Source: an uncultured Nitrospirales bacterium
Lineage (GTDB): Bacteria > Nitrospirota > Nitrospiria > Nitrospirales > UBA8639
Reading direction: 5' to 3'
DNA length: 64,000 nucleotides
Assembly: GCA_958295805.1 (NCBI GenBank)
Contig: OY282373.1
Span: 2,203,001-2,267,000 of the forward strand
The translations under genes were made by a program, and so were the position numbers. The first letter of the stretch is position 1. Each line of letters opens with the position of its first letter. The notes under the pieces were generated by a model. The model was not told the DNA's origin, made no database searches, and saw nothing but the letters and a program-made list of their open reading frames with translations. Shown here piece by piece: positions 16,303 through 63,417 of this stretch.

Positions 16303-16832
16303 GCCGTCTGCGCCGGGAAGGTGTCCACTTGGTCGCCTTGCCCTTGGGCACGCTGCCCTAACCGACGAAGCCCGGCGGGTCGAACCTCACCAATCTGGCC
16401 CTCTTGGCGAGGGAATGAGAAAATTGCGAAATTCCCCTTTGTCACCCTGCCCCTTTTGTCACTCTGAGCGAAGCGAAGGGTCTCACCGCCCAAGCCGGGA
16501 TTCTTCCCTTCGAGGCTCAGGGCAGGCGCTTCGCTCAGAATGACAGACAGAATGACCAGCGGCGGCCCGCTCTGGGAGATATGACATGACCGCTTTGATA
16601 CGGATACAAGGGATTACGGAAAGGCAGCAATCCGACGCATCCCCGGCCCCCACCCCCCGCAAGCGGATGATGATCATCGATCCCCCTTTCAAGCGCCTCT
16701 ACCACGACACGGCCTCGCTGGTGAAATTCCCCCTGGCCCTTGGCTATCTCTCGGGGGCGGTCTTGAAGTGGACGGATTGGGAGGTCCAGGCCTACAACGC
16801 TGATTTCAACCCGAAGAAAAAAGCGATCGCCC
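16303..16832 (+). repeat. Long direct repeat, left copy
   Basis: Nearly identical by eye to 62615-63138 in the same orientation, with small indels. It covers the 3' end of a methyltransferase gene, a palindromic dispersed repeat and the first about 80 codons of the B12-radical SAM gene. In this copy the methyltransferase end is decayed and the radical SAM gene is intact; in the right copy it is the reverse. Confidence 0.9.
16458..16544. repeat. Palindromic dispersed repeat, copy 1
   Basis: Outer arms GTCACTCTGAGCGAAGCG (16458-16475) and CGCTTCGCTCAGAATGAC (16527-16544) are complementary at 17 of 18 positions. The GTCATTCTGAGCGAAGCG type of intergenic repeat is familiar from many environmental bacterial genomes. 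A second copy lies at 62769-62854. Confidence 0.75.
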
Positions 16833-18361
16833 TAGACAACGTCACCCGCATTCAAGAAGGAATGGCCCGTTACCTGCGTACCTTGGAAGACCCGTCGGCG
16901 CCCATCTGGGCAGAAATACGGTCGGCCATCACGGAGTTCGATCCGGGCGTCGTTGGCATCAGTTCCAAGACCCAGAACTTCCCGTCTGCGATGAAGATTG
17001 CGCGCATCGCCAAGGAACATAATCCCGACACACTGGTCGTCCTGGGCGGCCCCCATGCCACCTTGTCCACCAAGGCTGCGCTGGATTGCCCGGATATCGA
17101 CGTGGCGGTGTTGGGCGAAGGGGAGATGACGCTAGTCGAGCTGCTCAAGGTCTGGGAAAACGGCGCGCCGCTGAGTGAGGTGACGGGGCTGGCCTACCGT
17201 CAGGACGGTCGCACGGTGTTCACGCCATCGCGCGCCAACATGCCCGACCTTGACGAACTGCCTTTTCCGGCGGAAGCCGCGCCGCGAGTGCTTCGGGGCT
17301 ACGAGAGCTATCCGGCCGAAGCCTTCGGATACGTCTTCTCGGCTCGCGGCTGCCCTTACGCTTGCACCTTCTGCGAGTCCAAGGCCATCTGGACGCAAAG
17401 GACCCGCTGGCGCTCACCGGAAAACGTGGTGCGGGAACTCAAGTTACTGATGGAGCGAGGCATCCAGTACGTCTACTTCGACGATGATACCTTCGGAATC
17501 AACCCCCGTTATATCGAGAAACTGTGCAGTTTGATCGAAACCGAGTGTCCCGGACTCAAATGGGGCTGCGAGATCACGGTGGGCGTCGTCAAGGAGCGGT
17601 CGGCCGAATGGATGCGACGTTCCGGCTGCGTGCGGGTCAATATCGGTATCGAGTCGGGAAACAACCGGATACTGCACAGCGTCAAGAAAGGGCACACCAT
17701 CGAACAGGCGTATCCGGCGGTGGACCTCTGCCGGCGGAAGGATATCGAAGTCGGCGCCTTCTTTATGGTGGGTTTCCCGGAGGAAACGGAAGAGACGCTG
17801 CAAGACACCCTGACGGCCATCAAGAAAATTCACGCCGATAACATCATGCTGAGCATCTTCACTCCCTATCCGGGCTCCGAGCTGTTCCAGGTGTGCAAGG
17901 AGCTTGGGGTGGTGGACGATGACTTTGACATCACGCTTTACAACCATCAGAGCCCGGAAAACTGCTTCACCGCCTTCATCCCGCCGGAGCGTTTCAAGGA
18001 ACTGGTCCGAGAGGCGGTCGCAGTTGTCGGGCGCAAAAACAGCCGCGGCCGGTGGCACCGGGTAGCCCTGATGCTGCGCCAGCGCGACTTCCATCGCACG
18101 AAGCAGATGGCACGGCACTTCCTCCTCACCCGCGCGGCGTGGTATTTCGAGCGCGTCTTCAGACACCGCCGGCTCGTAGGATCGCCCTGGCAGCCTTGGA
18201 GAGGACGATTGCGGACTGAAATAATTCCAGAAAATTCTGGGGGGGGGGGGGGGGGGGGGGTAGTGAAGGTACTGCTCATCGGTGAGCATCTAACCCCCGG
18301 CAGTGCCATCAACAGAACCAGAACGCTGTTTGCCAAAACGGTCCGGCAACTGGATCGGTAG
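16586..18361 (+). CDS. B12-binding radical SAM protein, reading through a G22 tract
   Basis: The N-terminal B12-binding-like domain (about residues 28-200) has GGPHATL and LGEGEMTLVEL. The radical SAM core has the CxxxCxxC cluster motif GCPYACTFCE (Cys 256, 260, 263). The family includes methyltransferases and other modifiers of secondary metabolites or glycans; the substrate is unknown. ATG at 16586 has GGGAGAT upstream; Met at 16667 (MMIIDPPF) is an alternative. Near residue 552 the frame enters 22 consecutive G residues, reads seven glycines and continues into the start of a broken glycosyltransferase before stopping at 18361. The true C-terminus is therefore uncertain and may depend on tract length. 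Confidence 0.8.
   Translation: MTALIRIQGITERQQSDASPAPTPRKRMMIIDPPFKRLYHDTASLVKFPLALGYLSGAVLKWTDWEVQAYNADFNPKKKAIALDNVTRIQEGMARYLRTLEDPSAPIWAEIRSAITEFDPGVVGISSKTQNFPSAMKIARIAKEHNPDTLVVLGGPHATLSTKAALDCPDIDVAVLGEGEMTLVELLKVWENGAPLSEVTGLAYRQDGRTVFTPSRANMPDLDELPFPAEAAPRVLRGYESYPAEAFGYVFSARGCPYACTFCESKAIWTQRTRWRSPENVVRELKLLMERGIQYVYFDDDTFGINPRYIEKLCSLIETECPGLKWGCEITVGVVKERSAEWMRRSGCVRVNIGIESGNNRILHSVKKGHTIEQAYPAVDLCRRKDIEVGAFFMVGFPEETEETLQDTLTAIKKIHADNIMLSIFTPYPGSELFQVCKELGVVDDDFDITLYNHQSPENCFTAFIPPERFKELVREAVAVVGRKNSRGRWHRVALMLRQRDFHRTKQMARHFLLTRAAWYFERVFRHRRLVGSPWQPWRGRLRTEIIPENSGGGGGGGVVKVLLIGEHLTPGSAINRTRTLFAKTVRQLDR
18239..18260 (+). repeat. Homopolymer of 22 G residues, candidate phase-variation tract
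   Basis: An uninterrupted G22 run inside the radical SAM frame, immediately before a GTG codon (18263) that begins a GT4-like sequence. With 22 G the frames are fused; plus or minus one G would end or shift the upstream frame. Confidence 0.7.
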
Positions 18362-18985
18362 GGGTTCAATCTGACTGTCCTCAATTTGCAGCGGCCTATG
18401 AGCAACCAAGAGAGAGAGAGGTGTAGCAATTTTGACCGGGCGCCATCTCGCGCTGCCCCTTCCCCCCGACTCCGCTTGAGAAAGCGTATCTCGGTGGGCA
18501 TGATGATGCTGGCGCATCTGATTTGGGAAGGGCTGAAGCACATTCGCCGCTCCGAGGTCGTATTTCTCAACACTGGCTTCACACCCCTGTACATCATCGT
18601 GACTATCTGTGTATGGCCTATGTCGAAAGTCGCGCGACGGCACTTGACCCTGTGGTACTTGGGCGGTGAATCGCACCGGCTCTTCAGAGATGTTCCCTTA
18701 TTTCGCTGGCTGGCCCACAGGACTTTTCTGCGTTGTCCGCTGGTCTATGCCGAGACGTGGCAAACGCTGCGGGAGTTCGACGGCTAGGCCAACTTCCAGT
18801 GGCTCCCCAACACGTGAGACATTGCGGCCCCGGCGGAGAAACGCCGCGGCGAAATTCGCAAGCTGATCTTCGCCGCCCGACTGCGCATGGACAAAGGACT
18901 GGCGGAGGCCCTTGAGGCCTGCCGCTCACTGCCCGAGGGTTGCCATCTCCGCAGTGTTCTTGTTCACTGCTATTTGGGATATCCA
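18263..18985 (+). pseudogene. Degraded GT4 glycosyltransferase
   Basis: Starts VKVLLIGEHLTPG and is collinear with the intact GT4 at 20654-21754 through FRLLLMGPLP, ELDRRGF, LVYEERQTL and RKLIFMGQLRKEKGLAEAL equivalents. It is interrupted by TAG after RQLDR (18359), by TAG after LREFDG (18785) and by TGA shortly after NFQWLPNT. Homology ends near GCHLR, before the GT4 catalytic E-x7-E region, so the gene is both truncated and stop-ridden. It lies directly behind the G22 tract. Confidence 0.8.
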
Positions 18986-18987
18986 TA

Positions 18988-19716
18988 ATGATTATTTCGG
19001 TCCATGTGCCAAGGACGGCAGGCAACAGTTTCGGGCTGGCCCTCGAGCATCGCTTTGGAGAGCGTCTGCTGAGCGACTACAATAATGACCGGCCTGACGG
19101 TCTGCCTGTCTACACTTGGCCAAGACGCTGGCGCAGTCGCGCTTGGGTGCGCTCTCATGCGAGCGATCTGACTGCGAGCTACGACGCTGTCCACGGGCAC
19201 TTCACCGCATCCAAATACTTCCCCATCTTGCGGAGGGATTTGTGCATCTTCTTACGCGAACCGACAGATCGGACGATCTCGAATTACCGCAAAGATTTAA
19301 GCTCTGCCGCATTCTCGCGGTATGACAGATACATAGCCAAACTGCTGACACTCAGCCAGTACGCATCGCTGCCCACACAGTCCCGCATCTATGCGATCTA
19401 TACCAACGGCCTGCCAATGGAACAGTTCGCCTTCGTCGGAATAACGGAAGAATACGAAGCCAGCCTTGCCCTCTTCGAGGGGATCTTCGGTGTGAGCCTT
19501 CCGAAATACCATATCAATGTCCACCTACATGCCGTGCGCATGCGAGCTGCGGCAGGTAAGCCTTCCGAAATACCATATCAACGTCAACAAGAGGTTCCGG
19601 ACGATTTCAGCCTCCGCGAGAGGAAAGCGGTCAGAGCCGCTCAACGGGCGAATTATGTGATTTATGATGAAGCCCGGCGAAGGTTCGACGCCTTGTATTC
19701 CCGGCACGTTCGGTAA
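18988..19716 (+). CDS. Sulfotransferase-like protein
   Basis: A 242-residue protein with the 5'-PSB-like N-terminus IISVHVPRTAGNSF and a 3'-PB-like segment LREPTDRTISNY near residue 90. These are the two PAPS-binding features of the sulfotransferase family, so sulfation of a glycan is the likely role. The start is ATG at 18988, since the longer reading from 18940 begins inside the degraded GT4. A 22-bp sequence (GCCTTCCGAAATACCATATC...) occurs twice inside the gene, 64 bp apart (19496 and 19560), which suggests a local duplication that shifted frame near residue 175. The last 40 residues still look coding. Confidence 0.7.
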   Translation: MIISVHVPRTAGNSFGLALEHRFGERLLSDYNNDRPDGLPVYTWPRRWRSRAWVRSHASDLTASYDAVHGHFTASKYFPILRRDLCIFLREPTDRTISNYRKDLSSAAFSRYDRYIAKLLTLSQYASLPTQSRIYAIYTNGLPMEQFAFVGITEEYEASLALFEGIFGVSLPKYHINVHLHAVRMRAAAGKPSEIPYQRQQEVPDDFSLRERKAVRAAQRANYVIYDEARRRFDALYSRHVR

Positions 19717-19727
19717 ACAGGAGCAAA

Positions 19728-20657
19728 ATGGACATTCTGCATCACCTGATCCGCTATGTACCCCGGCCGATCAAGAATACGTACAGTCACCTTTTCGGTG
19801 ACAAGAAGTGGTTCTTGGTCGTGAACGCCGGCCGTCACCTGGTCGATTCCGTAATGACCGGAGAGGCGCCCGCGGTGCAGATGAAAGTGCATCATGCTCC
19901 GCCCGGTCGTTTCTGGGCCGACCCCATTCCCATAGTTGTCGACGGCAAGGTTTGGGTGTTCTTCGAAGATTATTCTTTCGCGTCAAAGAAAGCCGTCATA
20001 TCGTGCGCCCCGGTGTCCGCCGACGTCGACCTGGGTGAAGTCACCACCGCGTTGGAGTGTCCATACCATCTCTCCTACCCGTTTGTCTTCGAGCATCAGG
20101 GCCAGTTCTACATGATTCCCGAAACCTGGGCCAAGAATCGGATTGACCTGTGGCGCTGCCGCCGCTTCCCCGACGATTGGAGCCGGGAACGGACGCTGCT
20201 GGACGGCGTGAGCATGGGCGACCCGACTCTGCACCGGCAGGATGGAAAACTGTGGCTGTTCGGCACGGTGAGCGAGGTGAAGACGCAGATCAATGACGAG
20301 CTGCACATCTATGTGGCGGACGCCCTGGACGGTGCGTGGCGGCCCCACCCGGCCAATCCGGTGGTGTCTGACCGCCGCCGGGCCCGGCCGGCCGGCCGGC
20401 TGTTTTTCCGCGACGGCCACCTGATTCGCCCGGGGCAGGATTGCAGCAGAGGCTACGGACGCGCGGTAGTCCTCAACCGGGTGGATGCGCTGAACGAGCG
20501 CGCCTATGCCGAAACCCCCATCGGACGCATTGACGCCTCCGGGCTGCCCGGCAACCGGGGTACGCACACGGTCAATTACGCCGGCGGCCTCGAATTCCTG
20601 GACGGACGCACGAGGGTGCGCAGAGAAAGGGAGCAGAGCCTGGAGGAAGGCGGTTGA
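19728..20657 (+). CDS. Beta-propeller-type protein related to GINT1 N-terminal/GH43-like domains
   Basis: A 309-residue protein with repeated blade-like segments, including HAPPGRFWADPIPIVVDGK with FFEDY near residues 55-80. HLSYPFVFEHQGQFYMIPET and GDPTLHRQDGKLWLFGT follow. Such sequences accompany formyltransferase or glycosyltransferase genes in polysaccharide loci and resemble the domain at the N-terminus of plant glucosamine inositolphosphorylceramide transferase. The activity is unproven. The C-terminus (RTRVRREREQSLEEGG) looks divergent. Its TGA overlaps the TTG start of the next GT4 gene (TTGA), so the two are coupled. Confidence 0.65.
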   Translation: MDILHHLIRYVPRPIKNTYSHLFGDKKWFLVVNAGRHLVDSVMTGEAPAVQMKVHHAPPGRFWADPIPIVVDGKVWVFFEDYSFASKKAVISCAPVSADVDLGEVTTALECPYHLSYPFVFEHQGQFYMIPETWAKNRIDLWRCRRFPDDWSRERTLLDGVSMGDPTLHRQDGKLWLFGTVSEVKTQINDELHIYVADALDGAWRPHPANPVVSDRRRARPAGRLFFRDGHLIRPGQDCSRGYGRAVVLNRVDALNERAYAETPIGRIDASGLPGNRGTHTVNYAGGLEFLDGRTRVRREREQSLEEGG

Positions 20658-21754
20658 GCCTGAAAGAGGCGAAAAAGGGAAGGTTCAGGCTGCTGCTCAT
20701 GGGCCCGCTGCCCGCCAAGTCGGCGTCCCTTGGAGAACCCATTGGCGGGGCCAGGGTGACGTTTGCGGAAGCAGTCCGAGAGTTGGACCGGCGAGGCTTC
20801 GACCTTGACGTCATCAACACGGCCAGGCCGCGGCCCAATCTGCCCCTTTGGAAAATTCTGAGTTACGAGTTTCTCACCTTCGCGCGGGTGGTCTGGACAA
20901 TCCTGTGGAGGGCCCGACGCTCCGACCTGGTATTCCTTCACATGTCGGCCTATTCTGCACTGTTGGCGGCGTCCACCATCTGGGCCCTCCTGTGCCGGGT
21001 GCTGCGCCGCCCCCTGGCGCTACGGTTCTTTGGGGACAGCCTCTACTTCACCTACCATCGTTATGGGCCGGCTCGCCGCTGGCTGATGGACCGGACGTGT
21101 CTCCGTGCCGCGCTGGTGTATGAGGAACGGCAGACGCTCCGGGCGTTCAGCAGCAAGGACAACTTCCGCTGGCTGGCCAACACCAGGGACATCATCCCCG
21201 CGGAAATCAGACAAGACCGGGATCATGTCCGCAAGCTGATATTCATGGGCCAACTCAGGAAGGAAAAGGGGCTGGCCGAGGCCCTGGCGGCCTGCCGTTC
21301 CCTGCCCGAGGACTGCCATCTCCGAGTGTTTGGCCCCCGTATGCCCAACACCGACTTTTCCCTGTTCGACGGCCACCCCAGGGCGACCTACGGCGGGGTG
21401 CTGGAGCCGGAGGAGGTGCCCCGCGTCCTCGCCGAACACGACCTGCTGCTCTTCCTCAGCTACATGAGAAGCGAGGGCACTCCGGGAGTCATCATAGAAG
21501 CCTTCCAGTGCGGCGTGCCGGTTATAGCCACCTCGATAGGCGGAGTCCCCGAACAGGTGGAACACGAAAAGAGTGGGCTGCTGGTGGAACCTCGCTCCGT
21601 CCCGGAGTTGAAGGCGGCAATCCAGCAGCTGATTGACGACCCGGCTCTGTACCGGCGGCTTTGCGCCGGGGCCGGGCAGCGCGGCGAGTTCTTCCGCAGC
21701 GGGCGCCATTTCGACCGGTTGGCTGAGGAGCTGCGGGGCCTGGCCCGCAAATGA
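20654..21754 (+). CDS. GT4 family glycosyltransferase
   Basis: A 366-residue GT-B fold enzyme. The N-terminal domain shows LLLMGPLPAKSASLGEPIGGA with a Gly-rich acceptor loop. The C-terminal domain shows KLIFMGQLRKEKGLAEAL and YGGVLEPEEVPRVLAEHDLLL. It ends in the catalytic-region E-x7-E block EAFQCGVPVIATSIGGVPE. It transfers a sugar, probably from a nucleotide donor, onto a lipid-linked intermediate at the inner membrane. The start is TTG at 20654, overlapping the previous stop. It is paralogous to the genes at 29403 and 42238 and to the pseudogene at 18263. Confidence 0.85.
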   Translation: MSLKEAKKGRFRLLLMGPLPAKSASLGEPIGGARVTFAEAVRELDRRGFDLDVINTARPRPNLPLWKILSYEFLTFARVVWTILWRARRSDLVFLHMSAYSALLAASTIWALLCRVLRRPLALRFFGDSLYFTYHRYGPARRWLMDRTCLRAALVYEERQTLRAFSSKDNFRWLANTRDIIPAEIRQDRDHVRKLIFMGQLRKEKGLAEALAACRSLPEDCHLRVFGPRMPNTDFSLFDGHPRATYGGVLEPEEVPRVLAEHDLLLFLSYMRSEGTPGVIIEAFQCGVPVIATSIGGVPEQVEHEKSGLLVEPRSVPELKAAIQQLIDDPALYRRLCAGAGQRGEFFRSGRHFDRLAEELRGLARK

Positions 21755-21813
21755 GCAAGGTGCTGTCTCAGTTGCGTCCGGTCTCGGACCGGCACGTGGG
21801 GTGGAACAAATAG
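21751..21813 (+). pseudogene. 5' fragment resembling the start of wzx at 22820
   Basis: A 20-codon ORF beginning with ATG that overlaps the GT4 stop (ATGA). Its SQLRPVSDRHV matches AQLLPASDRRA near the start of the flippase at 22820. At DNA level CAGTTGCGTCCGGTCTCGG and CAGTTGCTTCCGGCCTCGG (from 22844) differ at only two positions. It looks like a stub of a flippase gene left when the methyltransferase was placed between GT and wzx. Confidence 0.55.
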
Positions 21814-21881
21814 CGCCATCCTGAGAGTGCTACTATACACAATACACAAAGTACAAAACTACCTCACGGGAGGAGAGCCAG

Positions 21882-22739
21882 ATGTTTGGTAAGACGATTG
21901 ATTACAGGCTGCTTCGGCTATTCGCGCATGACAGGCACCCCGAAGCGGAGGAACTTCGTCAGCTTGAGCGTAATCTGAGCATCGAATCTGCGGCGGCTCG
22001 CTTCGAAAAATGGAATCGCCGCCTGGACAACGAAATTCCCATTGATCCGGCTATGCGCTACCTGGAGGTCGGGTGCGGCATGGGGGAGATGTCCTTGGCG
22101 CTGGCGCAGCGCGGGTGCCGACACGTGACGGGTCTTGATAAAGACGCGTATTACATCGAAATCGCCAAGCGCTGTGCCCGGAAGAGGCAGTTGCAGGACA
22201 ACGTCACATTCGAGTGCATGAATGTTCATGATCTACCGAACGAGAAGGCGTATGACATCGTCCTTTCTCACGAGATGCTTGAGCACGTGGAACGCCCTGG
22301 CGATCACCTCCGCCGTATAGACGGCGTCCTCAAGTCAAGCGTCGTGGGGGGAGGTGGGGGAGTGATAATTCTAGCATTTGGCCCGCTGTTTCATTCACCG
22401 TTCGGGGTCCACATGAACCGGTTTTTCAGATTCCGCATACCGTGGATGGGAGTCCTGTTTTCGGAAGACGCGCTGATGCGTCTCAGGCGCGAGTTCTGGC
22501 GACCTGTAGCGGATGAGGCCGAGTCGTTCGAAGATACGCGGGAAGGATTGAACAAAATGAAGTTTTCGGAGTTTCTTCGCTACGTCGAAGAAATAGGGTG
22601 GAGAACGGAACGGTTGATTGTGAACCCACAGTTGAAACGCTGGCCTGCGCTCTGGCGACTTTCCAACCTGTTGTTGCGCGTCCCTTTCTTGCGCGACTAC
22701 CTTGCGGCTTCCGTATATGCGATTTACCGGCGGCCGTAG
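21882..22739 (+). CDS. SAM-dependent methyltransferase (class I)
   Basis: A 285-residue Rossmann methyltransferase. Motif I is YLEVGCGMGEMSLAL near residues 60-74, and the acidic strand-2 end is VTGLDKDAY. FECMNVHDLP and the post-motif LSHEMLEHVERPGDHL (UbiE/COQ5-like) follow. A G-rich stretch (G6 A GG T G5, 22346-22360) encodes VVGGGGGV where relatives usually have a short PGG, so length change there could affect the protein. GGGAGGAGAG precedes the ATG. The substrate is probably a sugar of the island's glycan. Confidence 0.8.
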   Translation: MFGKTIDYRLLRLFAHDRHPEAEELRQLERNLSIESAAARFEKWNRRLDNEIPIDPAMRYLEVGCGMGEMSLALAQRGCRHVTGLDKDAYYIEIAKRCARKRQLQDNVTFECMNVHDLPNEKAYDIVLSHEMLEHVERPGDHLRRIDGVLKSSVVGGGGGVIILAFGPLFHSPFGVHMNRFFRFRIPWMGVLFSEDALMRLRREFWRPVADEAESFEDTREGLNKMKFSEFLRYVEEIGWRTERLIVNPQLKRWPALWRLSNLLLRVPFLRDYLAASVYAIYRRP

Positions 22740-22819
22740 ATGGCAGGGATCCAGTGCGCGGCGGCGCGCGCAAGCCCCTGCGTGGTCGGCCTGCTGGAAT
22801 GACTCTGGAGTAGTGGAGC

Positions 22820-24151
22820 TTGAATCATCCTCTAATCGCCCAGTTGCTTCCGGCCTCGGACCGGCGCGCAGCGCGGCAGACCCTTCAGATGGGCGCCATT
22901 ACGGCGGTCCAACTCTTGGGCGGACTGGCCCAGTTGACCCTCTCCGCCCGAATACTTGGACCGGAAGGCTTCGGCATCCTGGCCGTCATCATCGCCGTCG
23001 CCGCGCTCATCCACGGTCTCTTGACCGTACCTGGCGGTGAAGCCGTTACAACGTTCGTCACGCGGGCCGTGGCAGAGGAAAGGCCGCACGAGGCGTCCCG
23101 CATACTGCGTTTCACCATGGCCACGTCACTGGGGCTGTCGCTCATCGCCTACGCCGTTATTGCCGTCCTTGCCCTCATGGCAGGCAGCCTGTTGGGGATT
23201 GAGAACGCCCACCGGGACATAGTGCTCATGTACGGCGTTGTGGGCATCTTCCTGGCTACTCGGACCGAAAGCCTGGCGGTCCTGCGGTTGTCCGACCGGG
23301 TATCCCTGGGGTTGGTCATCAGTCTGGCGGGCGTTCTGACCCGGATCGCCCTGCTCGGAATAGTATGGGTGAAGGGGGGCGGGCTGTTCGAGGTGGTCGT
23401 GGCGCATATTGCCGGTGTCGCGGTGAGCGGGACCGGGATGCTCGTTGCCGCGACAGTATCGGCGCCACGGGCGGGGATACCTGGTTTCCTGAGTTCGTTA
23501 TCGCTCAAAGTCCCGCCTGACGTGGTGCGCTTCCAGACCGGCGTATTCGGGAGGTCCACCCTCTCGGCATTGGCCTATCACGTGGACACTCTCCTGGTGG
23601 CGCAATTTACCGGCGCCGCGGACGTCGGACTGTACCGGGCGGCGAGGCAGATTACCGAAACCGGACACTATCCGTTTCAACCACTAAAGGATGGCGTGCA
23701 GGTCCAATACAGCAAGCAATGGTACTCGGGCCAGGGCGGGGCGCTGCGCCGCACCTCGCTGCGGTTCGGCCTGGTGTCGTTCGCGTCGGCGGTCGCGCTA
23801 TTCGGGCTGCTTGCCATCTTCCATCAACCCATCGCCTCGTTCCTCCTGGGAGAGGAGTTCTCAGGCGTCGCCCCCCTCCTGCTGATTATGATTTTCGGTG
23901 CCTTCACCGTGAACAGCATTTCCGCGCTTACCGTACTGCCGGCAGCGGTTGGGCGCGTCTGGCCGTTGCTGGCGGCAGAAATGGGCGGTTTGGCGGTTTT
24001 CGTCGCCGTCATCGTATGGCTGGTTCCGCTGCACGGCGCCGAGGGCGCGGCCTGGGCCAATACGACCTACTACAGCGTCATCGCCCTAATTCTAATCCCC
24101 TTCATCATCTCCACCCTGCAACAAAGCCGCCGTCTACAGCAGAAACCGTAG
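22820..24151 (+). CDS. Wzx-type polysaccharide flippase
   Basis: A 443-residue integral membrane protein with about 12-14 hydrophobic segments. The N-terminal pattern (GAITAVQLLGGLAQLTLSARILGPEGFGILAV) is typical of the MATE-like polysaccharide transporter family. It would move undecaprenyl-linked oligosaccharide across the inner membrane. The start is TTG at 22820; GGAG motifs lie close upstream. Downstream, the next gene is broken at its beginning. Confidence 0.82.
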   Translation: MNHPLIAQLLPASDRRAARQTLQMGAITAVQLLGGLAQLTLSARILGPEGFGILAVIIAVAALIHGLLTVPGGEAVTTFVTRAVAEERPHEASRILRFTMATSLGLSLIAYAVIAVLALMAGSLLGIENAHRDIVLMYGVVGIFLATRTESLAVLRLSDRVSLGLVISLAGVLTRIALLGIVWVKGGGLFEVVVAHIAGVAVSGTGMLVAATVSAPRAGIPGFLSSLSLKVPPDVVRFQTGVFGRSTLSALAYHVDTLLVAQFTGAADVGLYRAARQITETGHYPFQPLKDGVQVQYSKQWYSGQGGALRRTSLRFGLVSFASAVALFGLLAIFHQPIASFLLGEEFSGVAPLLLIMIFGAFTVNSISALTVLPAAVGRVWPLLAAEMGGLAVFVAVIVWLVPLHGAEGAAWANTTYYSVIALILIPFIISTLQQSRRLQQKP

Positions 24152-24355
24152 AGAGCGAAGGATGCCCCTCCCCACGGAAAAACTCACCGCGCGCTACGGC
24201 TGGTCGGCTGGAACGTGCTGTTTCTCATGGCGGGCTTGGCGCTGATTAGCGTCGTCGGTGAAGCGTACTTCCGGCTGACCGTGCCTTTCGTGGAGAACGA
24301 CCATCCCCGCACCTAGTCTTCAACTGTTGGGGGGATATTTCTACCCAACGCGGAG

Positions 24356-34051: not shown

Positions 34052-36344
34052 CGAAGCGAACTTCCCCTTCCCAGAGGTGTGTGTAGGAGCCGTCCTCGCG
34101 GACAAGGTACTGGCCGGTGCGGATGCCGGCGATGTCATAGGCGGGAAGTTCGCGCACGGCTACGGGGCGCTCGGTTAGCAGAAGGTCGTAGTCTTTGAAG
34201 CGGAAGTCGAGGGTGTCGAACCCATGCCGCTTTCTGTGGTCGGGAAGGTCGTCCACGTCAACCGGGATGAGGTGCAGAAAGAAACGCATGCCGGCGGTGC
34301 TGCTGGGCTGCACAGGCAGGGAGGGCACGGTCATCGCCTTGATCCGATTGCCACGGCTGTCGGTGTAGTCCACATAGGCCCGCAGTTGCTGGCCAACATC
34401 CGCGGTGGTGGGTGTGTACAGTGTGTACTCGTAGGTGGATCCTGGACGGCCGGAGCCGGAGACATTGGTCCAGCCTTCGGCATCGCCGCCGCGCTCCCAC
34501 TGCCAGGGGCTCCGGTCTGTGAAGCCCGCGCGATGCGCGGCAGGGGACAACGCGACGTAGAACGGCTTACCCGCTATCGGTATGTCCTGTCTGATGAATT
34601 GGGCGGCTCTATCCTCGCCTTGGCGCCCGACGTAAATCAGGCTGTTCCCGTTACGATACACATCAAAATAGCCATCGCGACGGATTACAAGTTCAGATTC
34701 CTGAATCATCTCGTCTATCTGCGCTGAATAGCCGCGCTGGCGGTAGAGAAAAATCTGCCTGTTTTCGGGCGTCAGCAGAGCGGGGACGGCGACTCGTTGG
34801 CGCGAGATGAAAAAATCGTATGCGAAGCTATCAGGCCACACAGGCCACGAGCGTCCAATCATTCTTCCTGCAAGATAATAATTTACCCCCCCCCCACCCC
34901 CCGCAAACCAACGGTAGGATATGGGGACAAAAACGCTCTGTCCCGCCTCTGTTATTGTCCTGATATGCTCAAAATCGGCAACGACCGCTTCCTGAAATTC
35001 GGACGCCTGCTGGTCGTGACCAACGCGCCCCATCTGGAAGCTGGAAAGAACGAAGATCAGCAGCGCGGCCGCGGAGAGACCGACAAGAAGACGGTCGCCG
35101 AATAACCGGCGTAGGCACAACAGCCCTATTGAGAAGAGTACCAACGGAACGCCGATATAGAAGACGCTCTCATAATCATGCATAAAGACATGATGGCGCA
35201 TCGGCAATGCCCAGCAGAAGCCGGACAGCACCAAGGTGGCCAGCAGCATTTTGTAGCGGGCAACCAGCAGCCCCAGGACGACGACACTGGACGCCAACGC
35301 GCCAATAATCACACCGAGGTAGTCCTTGTCCTCATAGATGTCGGTGTTGTCAAACGGACTGACATAGAACGGCAGCGTGGCTCTGGCGATATGGTAGAAC
35401 TGATTCTCCAGGAAGTTCTCCCATGCCAGAGCCTCGGCGTAGCGCTCGTTGAACTCGTCATCCGCTCCAAGGCGATAGGTTATGGACTTCACCGTCGGCA
35501 GTTCAGTCAGCGGGACCTCACCGTCAAACGCCCGGTATTCGTTGCCCTGGTTGAAGAAGAGCACCGCCATGCCGAAAAGCAGGGTGACGACGCCCAGCGT
35601 CAGGTAGCGGCTGAACGGCGGCGCGGCGACGCAGCGCTTGATTCGACCTGCCAAACTCGGAGGGGCAGATAGCCGGCGCGCCCGGTTCAGTTCGCGTAGC
35701 AGGCCAAGAACGATAAACGGCAGCAGCAGCGCATAGACGTGCCAGCCCAACAGCAGCGCCGCGCACGCCTTGATGAGCAACTGCCGGAAGCGGCCCTCCT
35801 GGACAAAAAGAACCATGCCGTGGACGGTCAGCAGCACGCCGAAAAGGGAGAGCCCATTTTCGGTAGCGAGCATATCGTTGTAATACAGCAAGTAGTACGA
35901 CGAGAACGCCAGCAGAGTGGCAGTTAAGGCAATCCAGCGGTTGGCGGTCAGCCGGCAGAGGGACAGGTAGGCCAGCACCGCGCTACCGGCGAAGAAGAGC
36001 AGAAACACCACGCGGGCGGCATGGATTCGCGCCGAAAAGTCATTCCCGAACGGCAATATGGCCAGTTTGATGAGCGCATAGCCGCCAAGCGGAAAACGAT
36101 TGTATGGAGCGTAGGAAGGGGTGCCGTCTTTATCCAGGGTTTGATTATGGAACATCAGAAGGTTGTGTTCGGGGGATAAATTTGCGGCTACCACCAATTG
36201 GTACGCCGATAGCGTATTGTGGAACCCGGGCCGGTAGAACTGTCCCCGGTCGTTGCCGAACAGGAACACCGTTGACAGCGCCGACAGGAGTAGCAGCAGC
36301 GGCAACGATGGGCGGAAGGAGGGTTTGACCTTCTTGAAGATCAT
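34044..36344 (-). CDS. GT-C type membrane protein with Ig-like insert and recurrent C-terminal domain
   Basis: A 766-residue protein. Residues 1-470 contain about 11 hydrophobic helices with a short acidic first loop, as in polyprenyl-phosphate-dependent GT-C enzymes of the ArnT/PMT type; the donor is unknown. Residues 560-572 (FDVYRNGNSLIYV) start the recurrent domain. It is split by an Ig-like module at about 597-677 (WQWERGGDAEGWTNV, YTPTTADVGQQLRAYV) and resumes at FFLHLIPVDVDDLPDHRKRHGFDTLDF to the end. In the periplasmic part, G10 and G6 tracts separated by T (34886-34902) encode a run of glycines after YRWFA. The oxidoreductase pseudogene overlaps its stop. Confidence 0.75.
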   Translation of the reverse strand: MIFKKVKPSFRPSLPLLLLLSALSTVFLFGNDRGQFYRPGFHNTLSAYQLVVAANLSPEHNLLMFHNQTLDKDGTPSYAPYNRFPLGGYALIKLAILPFGNDFSARIHAARVVFLLFFAGSAVLAYLSLCRLTANRWIALTATLLAFSSYYLLYYNDMLATENGLSLFGVLLTVHGMVLFVQEGRFRQLLIKACAALLLGWHVYALLLPFIVLGLLRELNRARRLSAPPSLAGRIKRCVAAPPFSRYLTLGVVTLLFGMAVLFFNQGNEYRAFDGEVPLTELPTVKSITYRLGADDEFNERYAEALAWENFLENQFYHIARATLPFYVSPFDNTDIYEDKDYLGVIIGALASSVVVLGLLVARYKMLLATLVLSGFCWALPMRHHVFMHDYESVFYIGVPLVLFSIGLLCLRRLFGDRLLVGLSAAALLIFVLSSFQMGRVGHDQQASEFQEAVVADFEHIRTITEAGQSVFVPISYRWFAGGGGGVNYYLAGRMIGRSWPVWPDSFAYDFFISRQRVAVPALLTPENRQIFLYRQRGYSAQIDEMIQESELVIRRDGYFDVYRNGNSLIYVGRQGEDRAAQFIRQDIPIAGKPFYVALSPAAHRAGFTDRSPWQWERGGDAEGWTNVSGSGRPGSTYEYTLYTPTTADVGQQLRAYVDYTDSRGNRIKAMTVPSLPVQPSSTAGMRFFLHLIPVDVDDLPDHRKRHGFDTLDFRFKDYDLLLTERPVAVRELPAYDIAGIRTGQYLVREDGSYTHLWEGEVRFDE
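34886..34902 (-). repeat. In-frame G-rich tract (G6 T G10 on the minus strand)
   Basis: C10 A C6 on the plus strand. It encodes AGGGGGV in the GT-C protein. Homopolymers of ten are prone to slippage and would shift the frame, removing the C-terminal domain. Confidence 0.6.
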
Positions 36345-55022: not shown

Positions 55023-58000
55023 TCACGCCTCCACAACGTGTCGGTCGCCGTCGTCGTATGCCGCCCCTGTCGCGACGCACAACCCGGCGAGAAACATGAA
55101 CGCACCGATGCCGAGCAGATGCTGGAAGGTCATGCAGTACAGGGCGATGACGATGACCCCGGCTACGGTTGCATCCCGGGCAAGCGACTTGGGCGCACCC
55201 CACTGCGCACGCAGCAGAAGGACAAGGGCGGACACGAACAACAGCAGAGGGACGATGCCCGCCTCGCCCAGCAAGGTCAGGTACAGGTTGTGGGGGCCCA
55301 GCGGCCTGCCGTGATGTCCGATGGGGGCGCCCTCCATGTATTCCAACGCCCCCAGGCCGTGACCAAAGACAGGCGCCTCCATGGCCTTCTCGAAACCCAG
55401 TCTCCAGAGCAGCGGTCTGTCCATCTCCAGGACAGTGCAGATGAGGCTGTCATCAATGTCGTGGCTGCGCAGACGTTGCAGTTCCTGCGGCATGCAGCCG
55501 CGGAAGTCGTTACCGGCGACGGCCAGGGAGAGATGCTTGATTCTGGCCAATGCGGGCGGGATGGAACCGGTGAGTCGGTTGTCGGCCAGCCACAGTTGCC
55601 TGAGATTCAACAGATTGGCGAGTTCGGGCGGGATGGGGCCGGTCAGGCGATTGCCGTTGAGCGACAGCATGGTCAGACGGGTCAGGGTCCCCAGTTCCGG
55701 TGGAATGGGGCCGGTGAGTCGGTTGCCGTTGAGCCGCAGCCTAAAGAGATGGTTCAGTTCGCTCAGTTCCGGGGGAATCCGCCCCGTCAGGTTCATGTCT
55801 TGCAAGTCCAGAGTGCCGACGCGACCAGATCGCGTGACGGTCACGCCCTGCCAGGACGAGACGGGCCGAGCATAGCTCCAGTTCAGCACCGCGTCGCCGG
55901 CCAGGATGTCGCGCAGGCGCATCAGACGCGCGCCGTCTTCGAACAGGTCCGGTTTGGTCCAGGGCGACGACTCGCAGAGCAGATCGGCGGAATCCAGATC
56001 GTTGTGCCGTACCTGCACCGTACGCGACGCGGTCGGGATGCAGCCGGCGAATGCGTTGCCGCCCAGACGGAGTACCACAAGACGATTCAACCAGCCAAGT
56101 TCCTCGGGGATTCTTCCGTGCAGACGATTGTTCTCGAGCCGCAGTTCTTCCAGACGCCCCAGGTTGCTGAGCTGCGGATTGACGTGGCCCTGCAGGAGGT
56201 TGTCCTCCAACGCGAGTACGCGCAGGTTGGTCAAGGTGGTGAATTGCCGCGTAAAACCGGTGAGTTCGTTGTTCCCGAGACGCAGCAAAACGAGTCCCTG
56301 CAACGTGCCCAGCTCTTCCGGGATCGCGCCGGTCAGCGCATTGTTCTCCAGATTCAGGGTCCGAAGCCCGGACAGGGCGCCCAGTTCCGGCGGGATGGAT
56401 CCTCCCAGCCGATTGTGGCCAAGCCGCAGTACGGCAAGGGCGTCCAGAGCCGACAACTCCGCGGGAATCCGCCCGTTCAGGCCCGTATGTGACAGATCCA
56501 GGGCGATCACGCGCAGCCCTTCCACGGCCTCGCCGGCGATGGCGGGAAAGCCGACGGTAACGCCCCGCCAATAGCCGATGGGGACCGCGTCGCTCCAGTT
56601 CAGTTCGACATCGCCGGCCAGCACGTCCCGAGCGTCCAGCAACGTGGCGCAGTCGTCATTCAGGCGCGACAGTGCTGCGGGGAGGGATTGACAGAGCCGG
56701 TTCCGGTCGAGAACCCTGCTGCGACCGCGATCCGGCGCCGGCAGTTCGCCAGCCTCGTCGTCATCATCCAGGCGCAACACGACCAGCTCGGGTAGCGCGG
56801 CCACCGAGGGAGGTGCTGGGCCGATCAGACTGTTCCCGTGCAGCCACAAGTCGGTAAGCCTCAACAGCTTGCCCAGTTCCGGCGGTACGGAACCGGCTAG
56901 GAGGTTGCCGTCCAACGCCAGCACGCGCAGATCGACGAGGTTGCCGAGATCGGGCGGAATGTCGCCGGCAAGCCGGTTGCGGCCCAGGCGCAGCGAGACG
57001 AGTCCGGCAAGCTGCCCCAACTCCGCGGGGATGCGTCCGTTCAACCCCATTTGGGTCAGGTCCAGCGCCGTCACGCGGCCCTGCGAACGGTCCATGACGA
57101 CGCCCAGCCAGTCATCGACGGGCACCTCCTCGCGCCAGTTAAGCGGCGCATCTCCCGCGAGGGCGTCCTTCACCCTCAGCAACAGGGCGCAATCGGCGGG
57201 CAGGCCCGGATCGATTTTCCTCGGCCGGCAGAAAACCGGCGTGTCGAGGTCATGGTCGGCAACCTCGTGGAGCGCCGGCGGAAAGGGCCGATTCAGGTCG
57301 TTGCCGGCGAGGCGCAGGAAACGGAGATTGCCCAGTCCTTCCAGTTCCGGAGGTACGGAGCCAGTGAGCCGGTTGTGACTCAGGTTCAGCGCGACGAGGT
57401 CGGTCAATTTTCCCAGCTCCGCGAACAGGCGCCCGTTCAGTCCCGCGCGCGGCAATTCCAGGGCAGTCACGCGCTTCGGCGCACCGTCGACGCTGACGCC
57501 CTGCCAGAACTCGATGGGTATGTCCTCGCTCCAGTTGAGCGGCGCGTCGCCGGCCAGGACGTCCCGGCTCGCCAGCAACAGGGCGCATTCGGCTTGCAGA
57601 TCGGAACCGGCGCCGGAGGAGGGTCGACAGAACAGGCGCCTTCCCGCATCCGGACGATCCCGGTTCGTGCGGTCCGCTGCCTCTGCCGTTTCCGCGTCGC
57701 CGAGCGGCCGACGACGGCTCGGGTCGTCGAGAGCAATGTTGACGTTGGTGATCCCAAATAGACGCCGAGGGTAGGGGCGGTCCAGATCGTTGACGGAGAG
57801 GCGCAGGAGGGTCAGCTTCTTCAGCCCCTGGAGTTCCGGCGGCACGGGGCCGCTCAGGCGGTTGTGCTTCAGCCACAATTCCTTGAGATGCGACAGTTTC
57901 CCCAGTTCCGGCGGAATCGGGCCGCTCAAGGCGTTGAAGGAGAGCACCAGGCGCTCCAGGTTGGTCAAATTCCCCAGTTCGGGAGGCACCGGACCGGTGA

Positions 58001-61000
58001 GCCGGTTGCGGTTCAGAGCAAGCGACACGAGTTGGCTCAATCGTCCCAGCGCCGGCGGGATGCGCCCGTTCAGACCTGAACTTGCAAGTTCGAGCCTCGT
58101 CACGCGGCCCAGCGAGCCGCCGATGGTGACGCCCTGCCACAACTTGATGGGGAGATGCTCGCTCCAGTTGAGCCGCGCTTCACCGGCGAGGATGTCCCTG
58201 CTCGCCAGCAGGAGCGCACAATCTGCGCGCAAACCGGGATTGTCGGCAGGAGCAGCGGGGCAGGTCGCTTCCCCGCCGGCTGCTGAACGCAGTTCGGGCG
58301 GGAGGGAACCGGTCAGGCGGTTGCCGCTCAGCCAGAGTTCCCTGATGCTCGACAGCTTCGCCAGTTCCGGTGGGATGGGGCCGGACAGGTCGTTGGCGGC
58401 AAGCCCGAGCATTTCCAGGTCGGTCAGTTTCCCCAGCTCGGGCGGTATGGCGCCGGCCAACACGTTGCCGTCAAGCACCAGGGACCGCAAGCCGGCGAGA
58501 TGCCCCAACGCCGCGGGAACGCGCCCATTCAGTCTCATTTTGGGCAGCTCCAGCGCAATGATACGACCTTCCGGACCGCCCACGGTCACGCCCTGCCATT
58601 CGCCGATCGGCAAGGCCACGCTCCAGTTGAGCTGCGCGTTGCCGGCCAGCGTGTCTTTCATCGCCAATAGCCGCGCACAGTCGTCAAGCAACGCGGAGCT
58701 GATTCGCGACGATGGCAGACAAACCGCGGAACTGAGCAAGTCGTGTTCCGGGACCGCCAGCAGTTCCAGCGGAACGGGGCCGGTCAGGGCGTTGCGGCCC
58801 AGGAACAGGCCGCGCAGGTTGACGAGTTGCCCCAACTCCGGCGGAATCGAACCGGTGAGCTGATTGGCGGACAGGTTCAACCACACGAGGCCATCCAGGC
58901 TGCCGAGCTCCGGCGGAATGCGCCCGGTGAGTTCCCTCGCCTCCAGATTGAGCACGACCACACGTCTCGGCGAACCGGACGCGGACATACCTTGCCATTC
59001 GTCGATCGGCAAGGTCACGCTCCAGTTGAGCTCGGCTTCGCCGGCCAACGTCTCCTTTAGCGCCAGGAGCAACGTGCAGTCGTCGAACAACAGCGGACTG
59101 GGAGGCAATGGCGGCCGGCAAAACACGAGATGACTGAGATCGTGTTCGAGAATATCGGACACTGCCGGCGACACAGGGCCGGTCAAGCGATTCTCTCTCA
59201 GCCACAAGGACTCGAGCCGACGGAGTTGTCCCAGTTCTGCGGGGACGGTGCCGGTCAGGGCGTTGCGGTCCAGGCTCAATGCACGCAAAGCGACAAGGCG
59301 CCCCAACTCGGGCGGAACCGGACCGGTGAGACGATTGGCGGCCAAGTTCAAATTGACGAGGCCATCCAGCCTGCCGAGTTCCGGGGGAATGCGTCCGTTC
59401 AGCCCTTTCGAGTCCAGAATGAGCTCGGTCACACGTTCCTGGGGACCGCCCACGGTCACGCCTTGCCACAAGCCGATGGGGATCGCTTGGTGCCAGTTGA
59501 GCGACGCGTCGCCGGCCAGCGTGTCCTTCACTTCCAGCAGCACCGTGCAGTCGTCGAACAGCGCCGGGCTCGTTGACGACAGCGGCAGGCAGAGCCGCGT
59601 ACCGGCCAGATCGTGGTTGGCGACGGCGGTGAGTTCGGGAGGAATAGAGTCGAAATCGTTGCTCGAGAGACGCAGGACGGACAGGTCGAGCCCTCCGAGA
59701 GCGGCCGGGACTGGGCCGGTCAAGCGGTTGTGTTTCAGCCACAGCTCCTCGAGGTTATCGAGCTTCGCCAGTTCCGGCGGGATGCCCCCGGTCAAGGTGT
59801 TGTAGCTCAGAACCAGACGCTCGAGGCTCGCCAGATTGCCCAACTCGGGCGGAATGTGGCCGGTGAGCCGATTTCGTTGAAGGGACAGCGAAACGAGGCG
59901 ATCCAGGCGGCCCAGATCCGAGGGGATACGGCCGTTCAATCCCAGTCCCGCCAAGTCCAGCCGGGTGACGCGTCCCTCCGGGCCCTCCACTGTCACGCCC
60001 TGCCAGTGGTTTACGTGCACGGTGCTACTCCAGTTCAAGACAACGTCCCCGGCCAGGATGTCCCTCGTTGCCAGCAGGACGGCGCAGTCCGCGCCGGGAT
60101 CGTCGGTCGGCGAAGGGTCGCAGAACAGGCTCCCCTCATACACAAAGTCGGGAAGGAGCCGCAATCTCGACCACTCGGAAAAACCGCCGATGAAACCCAC
60201 AACGCCGACGAGTACTGCAATCCCGATCAATCCTGTGGCGGCCAAAGCGAAGACGAAGGTCCTCGGTTTGCTGCGGACGTTGATCAACAGGAACACGACC
60301 GCCAGCGCACCGAGTACGACCAACGCTGTTCGGGACATCGTCGCCAAGCTGGCGGCGACGCCGACGGTCAGGCCCAGCCAGCCGAGCGTGCGCGGCCCGC
60401 CGTTGGTGAGCAACGCCGCGGCCAACCCCACCGTCATGCAAGTGGCCAAGCTGGCGTCGTTGGGATCGACGAAAGCGCCGGTCCGGCGAAATGGAAGCCG
60501 GTAAGGCGGCAGGATGCCGAGATCGCGCAGGACCGGCGAAGCGAGAATGATGGCGCAACCCGAAATCAGGATGACCAGCACCCCCTGCAACAAGCGCTCG
60601 GCCCCGGTTCGTTCCAGCACCGCGCGGCCACCGACCGCGGCCGCCACGAGTACGCCGAAATGGAGGACGTGATACCTCAGGCTCCCGGCCGTATCCGGTT
60701 CCCGGATCGCTTCGACGCCCAGCACGGCGGCGCCGATCGCCAGATAGGACGCCACCGCGGCGAACAGCAACATGCCGGGCGTTCCGCCAAGCGTCCTCCG
60801 GATGGGGGCGAGAGAGCCGGACTTCCGCCAGGCCGTCACGCACCGGGCTCCAACCAGGCCCAACAAGATGACACTGCAGGCCATGGTAGCCCGTGCAATG
60901 CTCACCTCGACCTGCGGCAGCCCCCAAAGATGCAGAGACCTCAGGTTGGTCAGCGCGATGACCGCCAGTGTCCAGAACGCGACTGCGATCAGCATGGTCT

Positions 61001-61103
61001 GGAGCGACTCGCTTCGGCACAGCAGCGAGGCCGGACGTCGGAACAGTGAACCGGACGCTGGACTTCGAGCCATGCGGCGTTTGCCAATGGGTTCAGAGTT
61101 CAT
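55023..61103 (-). CDS. O-antigen ligase/polymerase-type protein with giant leucine-rich-repeat ectodomain
   Basis: A 2026-residue protein. Residues 1-310 hold about nine membrane helices, similar to the ligase at 40480 (LWGLPQVEVSIARATMAC, LGGTPGMLLFA). Residues 1896-2026 are the C-terminal ligase part (WRLGFEKAMEAPVFGHGLG, HNLYLTLLGEAG, last helices). Between them about 1570 residues (322-1890) form nine super-repeats. Each begins with a cap like CALLLASRDILAGEARLNW with W.GVTV, resembling plant LRRNT_2, then has 3-7 plant-type repeats of pattern LxxNxLTGxIPPELGxLxx, about 41 in all. The ectodomain should lie in the periplasm or protrude. Start MNSEPIGKRR at 61103 shares its leader with the wzx at 44528. 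Confidence 0.85.
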   Translation of the reverse strand: MNSEPIGKRRMARSPASGSLFRRPASLLCRSESLQTMLIAVAFWTLAVIALTNLRSLHLWGLPQVEVSIARATMACSVILLGLVGARCVTAWRKSGSLAPIRRTLGGTPGMLLFAAVASYLAIGAAVLGVEAIREPDTAGSLRYHVLHFGVLVAAAVGGRAVLERTGAERLLQGVLVILISGCAIILASPVLRDLGILPPYRLPFRRTGAFVDPNDASLATCMTVGLAAALLTNGGPRTLGWLGLTVGVAASLATMSRTALVVLGALAVVFLLINVRSKPRTFVFALAATGLIGIAVLVGVVGFIGGFSEWSRLRLLPDFVYEGSLFCDPSPTDDPGADCAVLLATRDILAGDVVLNWSSTVHVNHWQGVTVEGPEGRVTRLDLAGLGLNGRIPSDLGRLDRLVSLSLQRNRLTGHIPPELGNLASLERLVLSYNTLTGGIPPELAKLDNLEELWLKHNRLTGPVPAALGGLDLSVLRLSSNDFDSIPPELTAVANHDLAGTRLCLPLSSTSPALFDDCTVLLEVKDTLAGDASLNWHQAIPIGLWQGVTVGGPQERVTELILDSKGLNGRIPPELGRLDGLVNLNLAANRLTGPVPPELGRLVALRALSLDRNALTGTVPAELGQLRRLESLWLRENRLTGPVSPAVSDILEHDLSHLVFCRPPLPPSPLLFDDCTLLLALKETLAGEAELNWSVTLPIDEWQGMSASGSPRRVVVLNLEARELTGRIPPELGSLDGLVWLNLSANQLTGSIPPELGQLVNLRGLFLGRNALTGPVPLELLAVPEHDLLSSAVCLPSSRISSALLDDCARLLAMKDTLAGNAQLNWSVALPIGEWQGVTVGGPEGRIIALELPKMRLNGRVPAALGHLAGLRSLVLDGNVLAGAIPPELGKLTDLEMLGLAANDLSGPIPPELAKLSSIRELWLSGNRLTGSLPPELRSAAGGEATCPAAPADNPGLRADCALLLASRDILAGEARLNWSEHLPIKLWQGVTIGGSLGRVTRLELASSGLNGRIPPALGRLSQLVSLALNRNRLTGPVPPELGNLTNLERLVLSFNALSGPIPPELGKLSHLKELWLKHNRLSGPVPPELQGLKKLTLLRLSVNDLDRPYPRRLFGITNVNIALDDPSRRRPLGDAETAEAADRTNRDRPDAGRRLFCRPSSGAGSDLQAECALLLASRDVLAGDAPLNWSEDIPIEFWQGVSVDGAPKRVTALELPRAGLNGRLFAELGKLTDLVALNLSHNRLTGSVPPELEGLGNLRFLRLAGNDLNRPFPPALHEVADHDLDTPVFCRPRKIDPGLPADCALLLRVKDALAGDAPLNWREEVPVDDWLGVVMDRSQGRVTALDLTQMGLNGRIPAELGQLAGLVSLRLGRNRLAGDIPPDLGNLVDLRVLALDGNLLAGSVPPELGKLLRLTDLWLHGNSLIGPAPPSVAALPELVVLRLDDDDEAGELPAPDRGRSRVLDRNRLCQSLPAALSRLNDDCATLLDARDVLAGDVELNWSDAVPIGYWRGVTVGFPAIAGEAVEGLRVIALDLSHTGLNGRIPAELSALDALAVLRLGHNRLGGSIPPELGALSGLRTLNLENNALTGAIPEELGTLQGLVLLRLGNNELTGFTRQFTTLTNLRVLALEDNLLQGHVNPQLSNLGRLEELRLENNRLHGRIPEELGWLNRLVVLRLGGNAFAGCIPTASRTVQVRHNDLDSADLLCESSPWTKPDLFEDGARLMRLRDILAGDAVLNWSYARPVSSWQGVTVTRSGRVGTLDLQDMNLTGRIPPELSELNHLFRLRLNGNRLTGPIPPELGTLTRLTMLSLNGNRLTGPIPPELANLLNLRQLWLADNRLTGSIPPALARIKHLSLAVAGNDFRGCMPQELQRLRSHDIDDSLICTVLEMDRPLLWRLGFEKAMEAPVFGHGLGALEYMEGAPIGHHGRPLGPHNLYLTLLGEAGIVPLLLFVSALVLLLRAQWGAPKSLARDATVAGVIVIALYCMTFQHLLGIGAFMFLAGLCVATGAAYDDGDRHVVEA
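55434..60140 (-). repeat. Nine-unit leucine-rich super-repeat region
   Basis: Codons 322-1890 of the ligase. The cap motif (D/E-x-LAG-x-x-x-LNW ... W-x-GV) recurs nine times. Unit ends often read HDL...C.P.....DC, placing a Cys pair at each junction that may form disulfides. Units differ in the number of 24-residue repeats (3 to 7), so gain and loss of repeats is evident. Confidence 0.85.
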
Positions 61104-62854: not shown

Positions 62855-62895
62855 AGACAGAATGACCAGCGGCGGCCCGCTCTGGGAGATATGAC

Positions 62896-63138
62896 ATGAC
62901 CGGTTTGATACGGATACGGGAGATTACGGAAAGGCAGTAATCCGAAGCATCCCCGGCCCCCCCCGCAAGCGGATGATAATCATTGATCCCCCTTTCAAGC
63001 GCCTCTACCACGACACGGCCTCGCTGGTGAAATTCCCCCTGGCCCTTGGCTATCTCTCGGGGGCGGTCTTGAAGTGGACGGATTGGGAGGTCCAGGCCTA
63101 CAACGCCGATTTCAACCCGAAGAAGAAAGCGACCGCCC
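62896..63138 (+). pseudogene. 5' fragment of the B12-radical SAM gene
   Basis: The ATG at 62896 equivalent to the intact gene's start at 16586 is followed by a TAA 15 codons later (CAGTAA instead of CAGCAA). Met at 62973 (MIIIDPPFKRLYHDTASLVKF) restores the frame until the joint at 63138, after which the reading is unrelated. About 55 codons of true homology remain after that Met. Confidence 0.82.
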
Positions 63139-63417
63139 GCAATGCCAGCAGCCCAAGCCGAAGGCGGTCCGGGGCTGGCACAGTTCCTTGATGAGTTCCA
63201 TCACGTGGACGTCGTTGGTGAACCAGTGATAGAACTTCTTGAGCCGCGTGCCGGCGGCAGTGCCGGCGAGGCCGCCGATTTCGGCGTCGCGCTCCAGCAC
63301 CGTGGCGCGGACGCCGCGCCGGCCCAGCTCCCAGGCCGCGGCGAGCCCGCAGAAGCCGCCGCCGATCACCGCGACGTGGGGCCGGGAGGCGCCGGCCGTC
63401 GCCCGGCTACTCATCGA
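63139..63417 (-). pseudogene. Oxidoreductase fragment, second copy with internal deletion
   Basis: Reads AVIGGGFCGLAAAWELGRRG and VLERDAEIGGLAGT, then KFYHWFTNDVHVMELI, closely matching the pseudogene at 33282-34051. About 110 bp present in that copy (TYYAHDFFKLSTPLDLLRF region) are missing here, and the fragment ends at the repeat joint. Its start overlaps the stop of the upstream gene, as in the other copy. Confidence 0.75.

Follow-up and report, generated by a model that had tools for sequence, protein, structure and literature searches.

In the assembly, a run of 22 uninterrupted G residues occupies positions 18239-18260 (+) of the window, by which we mean the whole 64,000-nucleotide stretch of DNA that was analysed. 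Comparison with a single homologue suggests that the run stands in frame near the 5' end of what was once the coding sequence of a GT4 glycosyltransferase; this gene has since decayed, and the radical SAM gene upstream, having lost its stop codon, reads into the run. We consider it probable (roughly 60%) that this G22 is what is left of a poly-G switch that once controlled the glycosyltransferase, one of a set of long runs, others of which appear to be active. In the living gene, gain or loss of Gs by strand slippage would have decided whether the rest of the GT4 was read in the frame of its start codon, and a step in the making of a surface glycan would have gone on or off with it. We infer that such switching took place in the past; since the gene is now broken the site has not been filed as a functional phase-variable locus, although it is built like one.

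Table 1. Coordinates of the G22-associated features and of the glycan cluster in the window
Feature	Position	Strand	Remark
B12-binding radical SAM ORF, 591 codons, reads through the run	16586..18361	+	
TGG in place of the radical SAM stop	18188..18190	+	TGA in L113, L106, L103, L117
Former GT4 leader ATA ATT CCA GAA AAT TCT	18221..18238	+	comparison with L122
GT4 glycosyltransferase relic, C-terminal part missing	18221..18950	+	alignment to L122 GT4, 373 aa
TAGTG	18261..18265	+	radical SAM frame reads TAG with 21 or 24 Gs, GTG with 22
Sulfotransferase-like ORF	18988..19716	+	homologue directly behind G19 in L127
GINT1_N-like protein	19728..20657	+	
Intact GT4 glycosyltransferase	20654..21754	+	
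Methyltransferase	21882..22739	+	
Flippase-like polysaccharide biosynthesis protein	22820..24151	+	

The G22 run and its neighbouring genes

A sequence-only reading of this DNA had placed the run at 18239-18265. It correctly saw a G22 in frame within the 16586-18361 ORF; the last five bases of its interval are TAGTG, and the GTG that it put directly after the run is present (18263-18265) but stands two bases 3' of it. Nine consecutive Gs occur 16 times in the window against a mean of 1.46 in shuffled sequence, 14 of these occurrences falling within G22 itself, and the second-longest run of G or C is a C10, no other G-run exceeding seven. The length of G22 is therefore beyond chance.

The GT4 gene was characterized by comparison with its homologue in locus L122, which opens with ATG ATT CCA GAA AAT CTT AGA GTT AAG and carries no run. 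In the window the start codon has been lost (ATA for ATG) and the leader is followed by G22 and then TAGTGAAG, giving a former protein start of IIPENS, seven glycines and VVKVLLIGEH. The two proteins align in a single frame from residue 1 of L122 to about residue 230, the run adding seven glycines, and this alignment puts G22 directly after the sixth codon of the former GT4 gene, in frame at a length of 22. The start would consequently have lain before the run and not 3' of it, where it had been sought. Three in-frame stops (18359-18361, 18785-18787 and 18815-18817) interrupt the body, and homology to L122 ceases near 18950. Over 228 codons the differences from L122 number 64, 46 and 75 at the first, second and third codon positions, from which it appears that traces of selection remain. 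The search for GT4 starts took in 28 genomes and matched 24, the start itself being covered only in G073 (L122); with a single such homologue, gain of the run in the window and loss from L122 look the same.

The radical SAM frame enters G22 only because the TGA of its orthologues is TGG in the window. With 22 Gs this frame encodes seven glycines and 33 further residues; with 21 a TAG follows the seven glycines immediately, and with 23 they are followed by a tail of eight residues. The conserved part of the protein is intact in every phase of the run, and slippage today can only alter its non-conserved tail. The proposal that slippage by one base acts as a switch thus fails for the radical SAM core, which is off at none of the lengths worked out (21, 22 and 23). 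Nor do we find a radical SAM gene fused to an intact glycosyltransferase: the GT4 is broken, and the upstream stop was lost by substitution. What survives of the earlier interpretation is a slippage-prone class of runs found genome-wide and a glycan cluster around this one, together with the description of the downstream GT4 as stop-ridden; its own caveat, that the switch may be a relic, fits best with a GT4 that lacks a start codon, contains three stops and has lost its C-terminal part. Of the NCBIfam families listed as matching the radical SAM protein, all scored far below their curated cut-offs.

Several other features of the window were recorded. The C10, at 34886-34895, adjoins another C-rich stretch. 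Within the methyltransferase gene an interrupted G-rich stretch, GGGGGGAGGTGGGGG, lies at 22346-22360; locus L123 carries a G8 with similar flanks, and the stretch is possibly a decayed run. At 62860-63143 the radical SAM gene recurs as an N-terminal fragment (92% over residues 20-84), preceded by a 290-codon ORF that also precedes the radical SAM gene in several other loci. An ORF of 2026 codons at 55023-61103 (-) contains, as read by eye, many leucine-rich repeats.

Distribution of the glycan cluster

Downstream of the relic lie the genes listed in Table 1, the first of which resembles a sulfotransferase in its motif; a family search with this ORF gave no match. None of the 13 other genomes of the genus contains a close match to the radical SAM gene, the best being partial and at about 30% identity. 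A scan of named genomes located it at 30 loci, 28 of them at 76-89% identity and two at 56-57%. According to the record titles the hosts comprise Latescibacteria, Pseudomonadales, other Gammaproteobacteria, Binatia, Dehalococcoidia, Bryobacterales, Entotheonella, Caldilineaceae, Vicinamibacterales and Longimicrobiales. Pieces of the cluster (window 16550-24157) shared with loci L101-L130 are mostly 75-90% identical at the DNA level, and the order of the genes is modular, with gains, losses and inversions from locus to locus. The simplest reading of these comparisons is that the cluster has moved by transfer among unlike hosts. Twenty-five of the 30 records belong to one accession series, OY282352 to OY282565, which, judging from the taxa, would represent sponge symbionts.

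Long G and C runs within and across genomes

The genome from which the window derives is a single contig of 2,904,372 bases (99.85% complete). It contains 25 runs of G or C of at least nine, eight of which are at least 14 long (15, 16, 18, 19, 19, 19, 22 and 22); in 181 kb of its sequence no run of A or T reached nine. Within this genome a switch that still works is most likely to be found in L035 (4900-7400), about 86 kb from the run of the window. Here a module of some 190 bp, which includes a ribosome site and ATG, is present twice: one copy leads through a C22 in frame into one gene, and the other carries a C16 that is out of frame with another. Pfam gave no match for either downstream protein. 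In L031 a G19 and a T are followed by an ATG, which opens an ORF that is at least 1,335 codons long and encodes an Ig-like domain. Of the remaining runs, a G15 followed by TAA closes a sugar transferase ORF (L032), and the others lie within the 3' part of a transposase-like ORF (L033), at the end of a 222-codon ORF (L034) and between ORFs on the + strand (L036); we conclude that the long runs of this genome are not all of one class. Loci L046 and L047 of the same genome show three copies of one stretch bearing a G10, near-identical on both sides and about 7 kb apart.

Runs of at least 14 (with the preceding base) were found in 14 of 59 genomes, namely 10 of 14 in the genus, this genome included, and 4 of 45 others; those of the relatives often stand at contig ends and may be junk (L057, L063, L068). 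At least one run of 14 or more was present in 16 of the 19 genomes examined, with up to 32 per genome. Runs of 14-31 are long for the poly-G/C contingency class.

For the analysis of placement 84 distinct runs of at least 14 were pooled, eight from this genome and the rest from other MAGs; they come from the window and from loci L031-L036, L101-L130 and L161-L220. The set is not random: G060, G066, G072 and G075 were chosen for their richness in runs and contributed 20 of 32, 23 of 29, 14 of 15 and 10 of 13 runs counted, respectively, while G063 is represented by one stretch, and G076 and the remainder of G071 by none. Excluded were runs near the end of a locus and those whose flanks were identical to another's. 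The counts on all 84 runs, of start placement and of the adjoining bases alike, include paralogues; removal of shared flanks leaves 65 runs.

In this pool, paralogues included, a Shine-Dalgarno (SD) sequence plus ATG precedes the run by at most 30 nt in the C-sense in 21 of 84 cases, against 3.7% at shifted sites (p = 9e-12). By genome the figures are 10 of 20 in G060, 2 of 8 in the genome of the window (p = 0.068) and 2 of 23 in G066 (p = 0.16). In the G-sense the same arrangement occurs before 2 of 84 runs, which is no excess; the run of the window is read in the G-sense, and this counts against simply equating it with the main C-sense class. Among the 21 sites, 11 have open frames of at least 88 codons and ten have none above 62, the latter speaking against the switch reading; six are in frame as assembled. 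Pfam analysis of ten downstream frames revealed Calx-beta in two and a PMT glycosyltransferase domain in one, with nothing in seven.

Three further ideas were considered and rejected. A G-run stands just before an ATG, where it might act as a ribosome site, in 27 of 84 cases versus 13.7% before filtering, and in 10 of 84 versus 8.0% (p = 0.14) once CATG ATGs and runs with a C-sense ATG are dropped. As regular gene ends G-runs were likewise not sustained: a stop triplet follows 23 of the 84, yet among the frames listed there is no general long upstream ORF, L032 and L034 being the exceptions. Loss of mismatch repair does not account for the long runs either, as MutS1 and MutL were above cut-off in all 16 genomes examined. 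Some phase-variable species lack mismatch repair, but such a lack is not a requirement.

Alternative explanations and known contingency loci

The run might instead mark a recombination joint, at which the end of a gene or a start module has been attached to various downstream genes, its length being incidental. We regard this as unlikely, though it fares best among the alternatives. A long G-run stands at the radical SAM 3' junction in 3 of 31 loci (the window and the 30 others), and the downstream genes differ: in L127 a G19 at the same junction has the sulfotransferase-like gene directly 3', and in L119 a G21 leads into a GINT1_N-like sequence. Within the genome of the window, the homology shared by the copies in L035, and that shared by L033 and L048, extends no further than the run. 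Against this, several sets of paralogous runs have both flanks alike, with lengths that are unequal (22/25, 14/23, 20/22 and 17/22/26) or equal (17/17 and 24/24); the unequal ones count in favour of switches elsewhere. In the window the GT4 leader and body both match one homologue across the run, and hence no joint is needed there.

That the run still acts as a switch on the C-terminus of the radical SAM protein, by slippage that adds or removes a tail or fuses the next gene, seems to us decidedly improbable. The ORF does pass through the run at 22 Gs, and in L119 radical SAM and GINT1_N-like sequences form a single 857-codon ORF through the G21 (L119 5986-8559). However, in 26 of the 27 loci detected by script (L114, L126 and L130 were not) the radical SAM ORF ends at a stop of its own, outside any run; the tail is not conserved, and the GT4 fused to it is broken.

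A sequencing or assembly artefact is less probable still. It would agree with the frequent position of the relatives' runs at contig ends or in junk-like sequence, and with the flank signature. In the 65 runs free of shared flanks the Gs are preceded by C in 47 cases, by T in 16 and by A in two; YRR follows the G-run in 36 (22.7% for short G-runs; p = 1e-8) and a stop triplet in 18 (versus 3.7%; p = 1.5e-11). In the genome of the window T precedes the run in eight of eight. Such a signature may reflect either a sequence-directed origin or a context-dependent error. Run lengths from the assembler metaMDBG may also be inexact; PMC12648040 gives this assembler for a comparable sponge metagenome, to which no link of the present records is shown. 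On the other hand, eight runs lie inside one contig, the run is common to paralogous sites, and an artefact would not favour SD plus ATG on the C-sense strand. Least probable of all is neutral growth of the run in a gene already dead, with no past switch: the GT4 is now a relic and its run is of the G-sense class that shows no excess behind starts, but the body has kept its frame from one side of the run to the other, altered by substitutions only, and two of the seven other long runs in the genome are placed like switches.

The preferred reading, a relic switch of the GT4 gene, can be set beside known systems. The poly-G/C contingency loci of Campylobacter jejuni, Neisseria and Helicobacter undergo translational phase variation driven by slippage (see the 2025 review PMC11868660). 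The present runs resemble them in that there are several per genome, and in that a long run of G or C probably lay near the 5' end of the coding sequence of a surface-glycan gene, where its length would set the body in or out of frame. They differ in that the gene at the window site is dead, the genomes retain mismatch repair genes, most placement at starts in the MAGs is in the C-sense, and the organisms, all uncultured, represent several phyla. A second parallel comes from Campylobacter autotransporter genes with poly-G tracts, a class of surface genes for which PMC7168839 reports lineage-linked decay. The decay of a surface gene with a poly-G tract is the shared feature; here the gene is of another kind and from another phylum, and the preceding gene reads into the relic.

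A wider scheme, in which we place little confidence, would trace the long poly-G/C runs of uncultured and probably host-associated bacteria from several phyla, with their common flanks (KC, G-run, YRR), to a sequence-directed process. Such runs would act as slippage switches and also as joints for the exchange of start modules among surface genes, some of these genes having spread from phylum to phylum.

Among the titles and opening lines of abstracts in the open-licence PMC literature we found no treatment of such loci in these bacteria. The site in the window matters less in itself; it illustrates how a switch may decay and be read into by the preceding gene. Of greater consequence are the sets of long runs, up to 32 per uncultured MAG and associated with start codons in the pool, which make the wider question testable.
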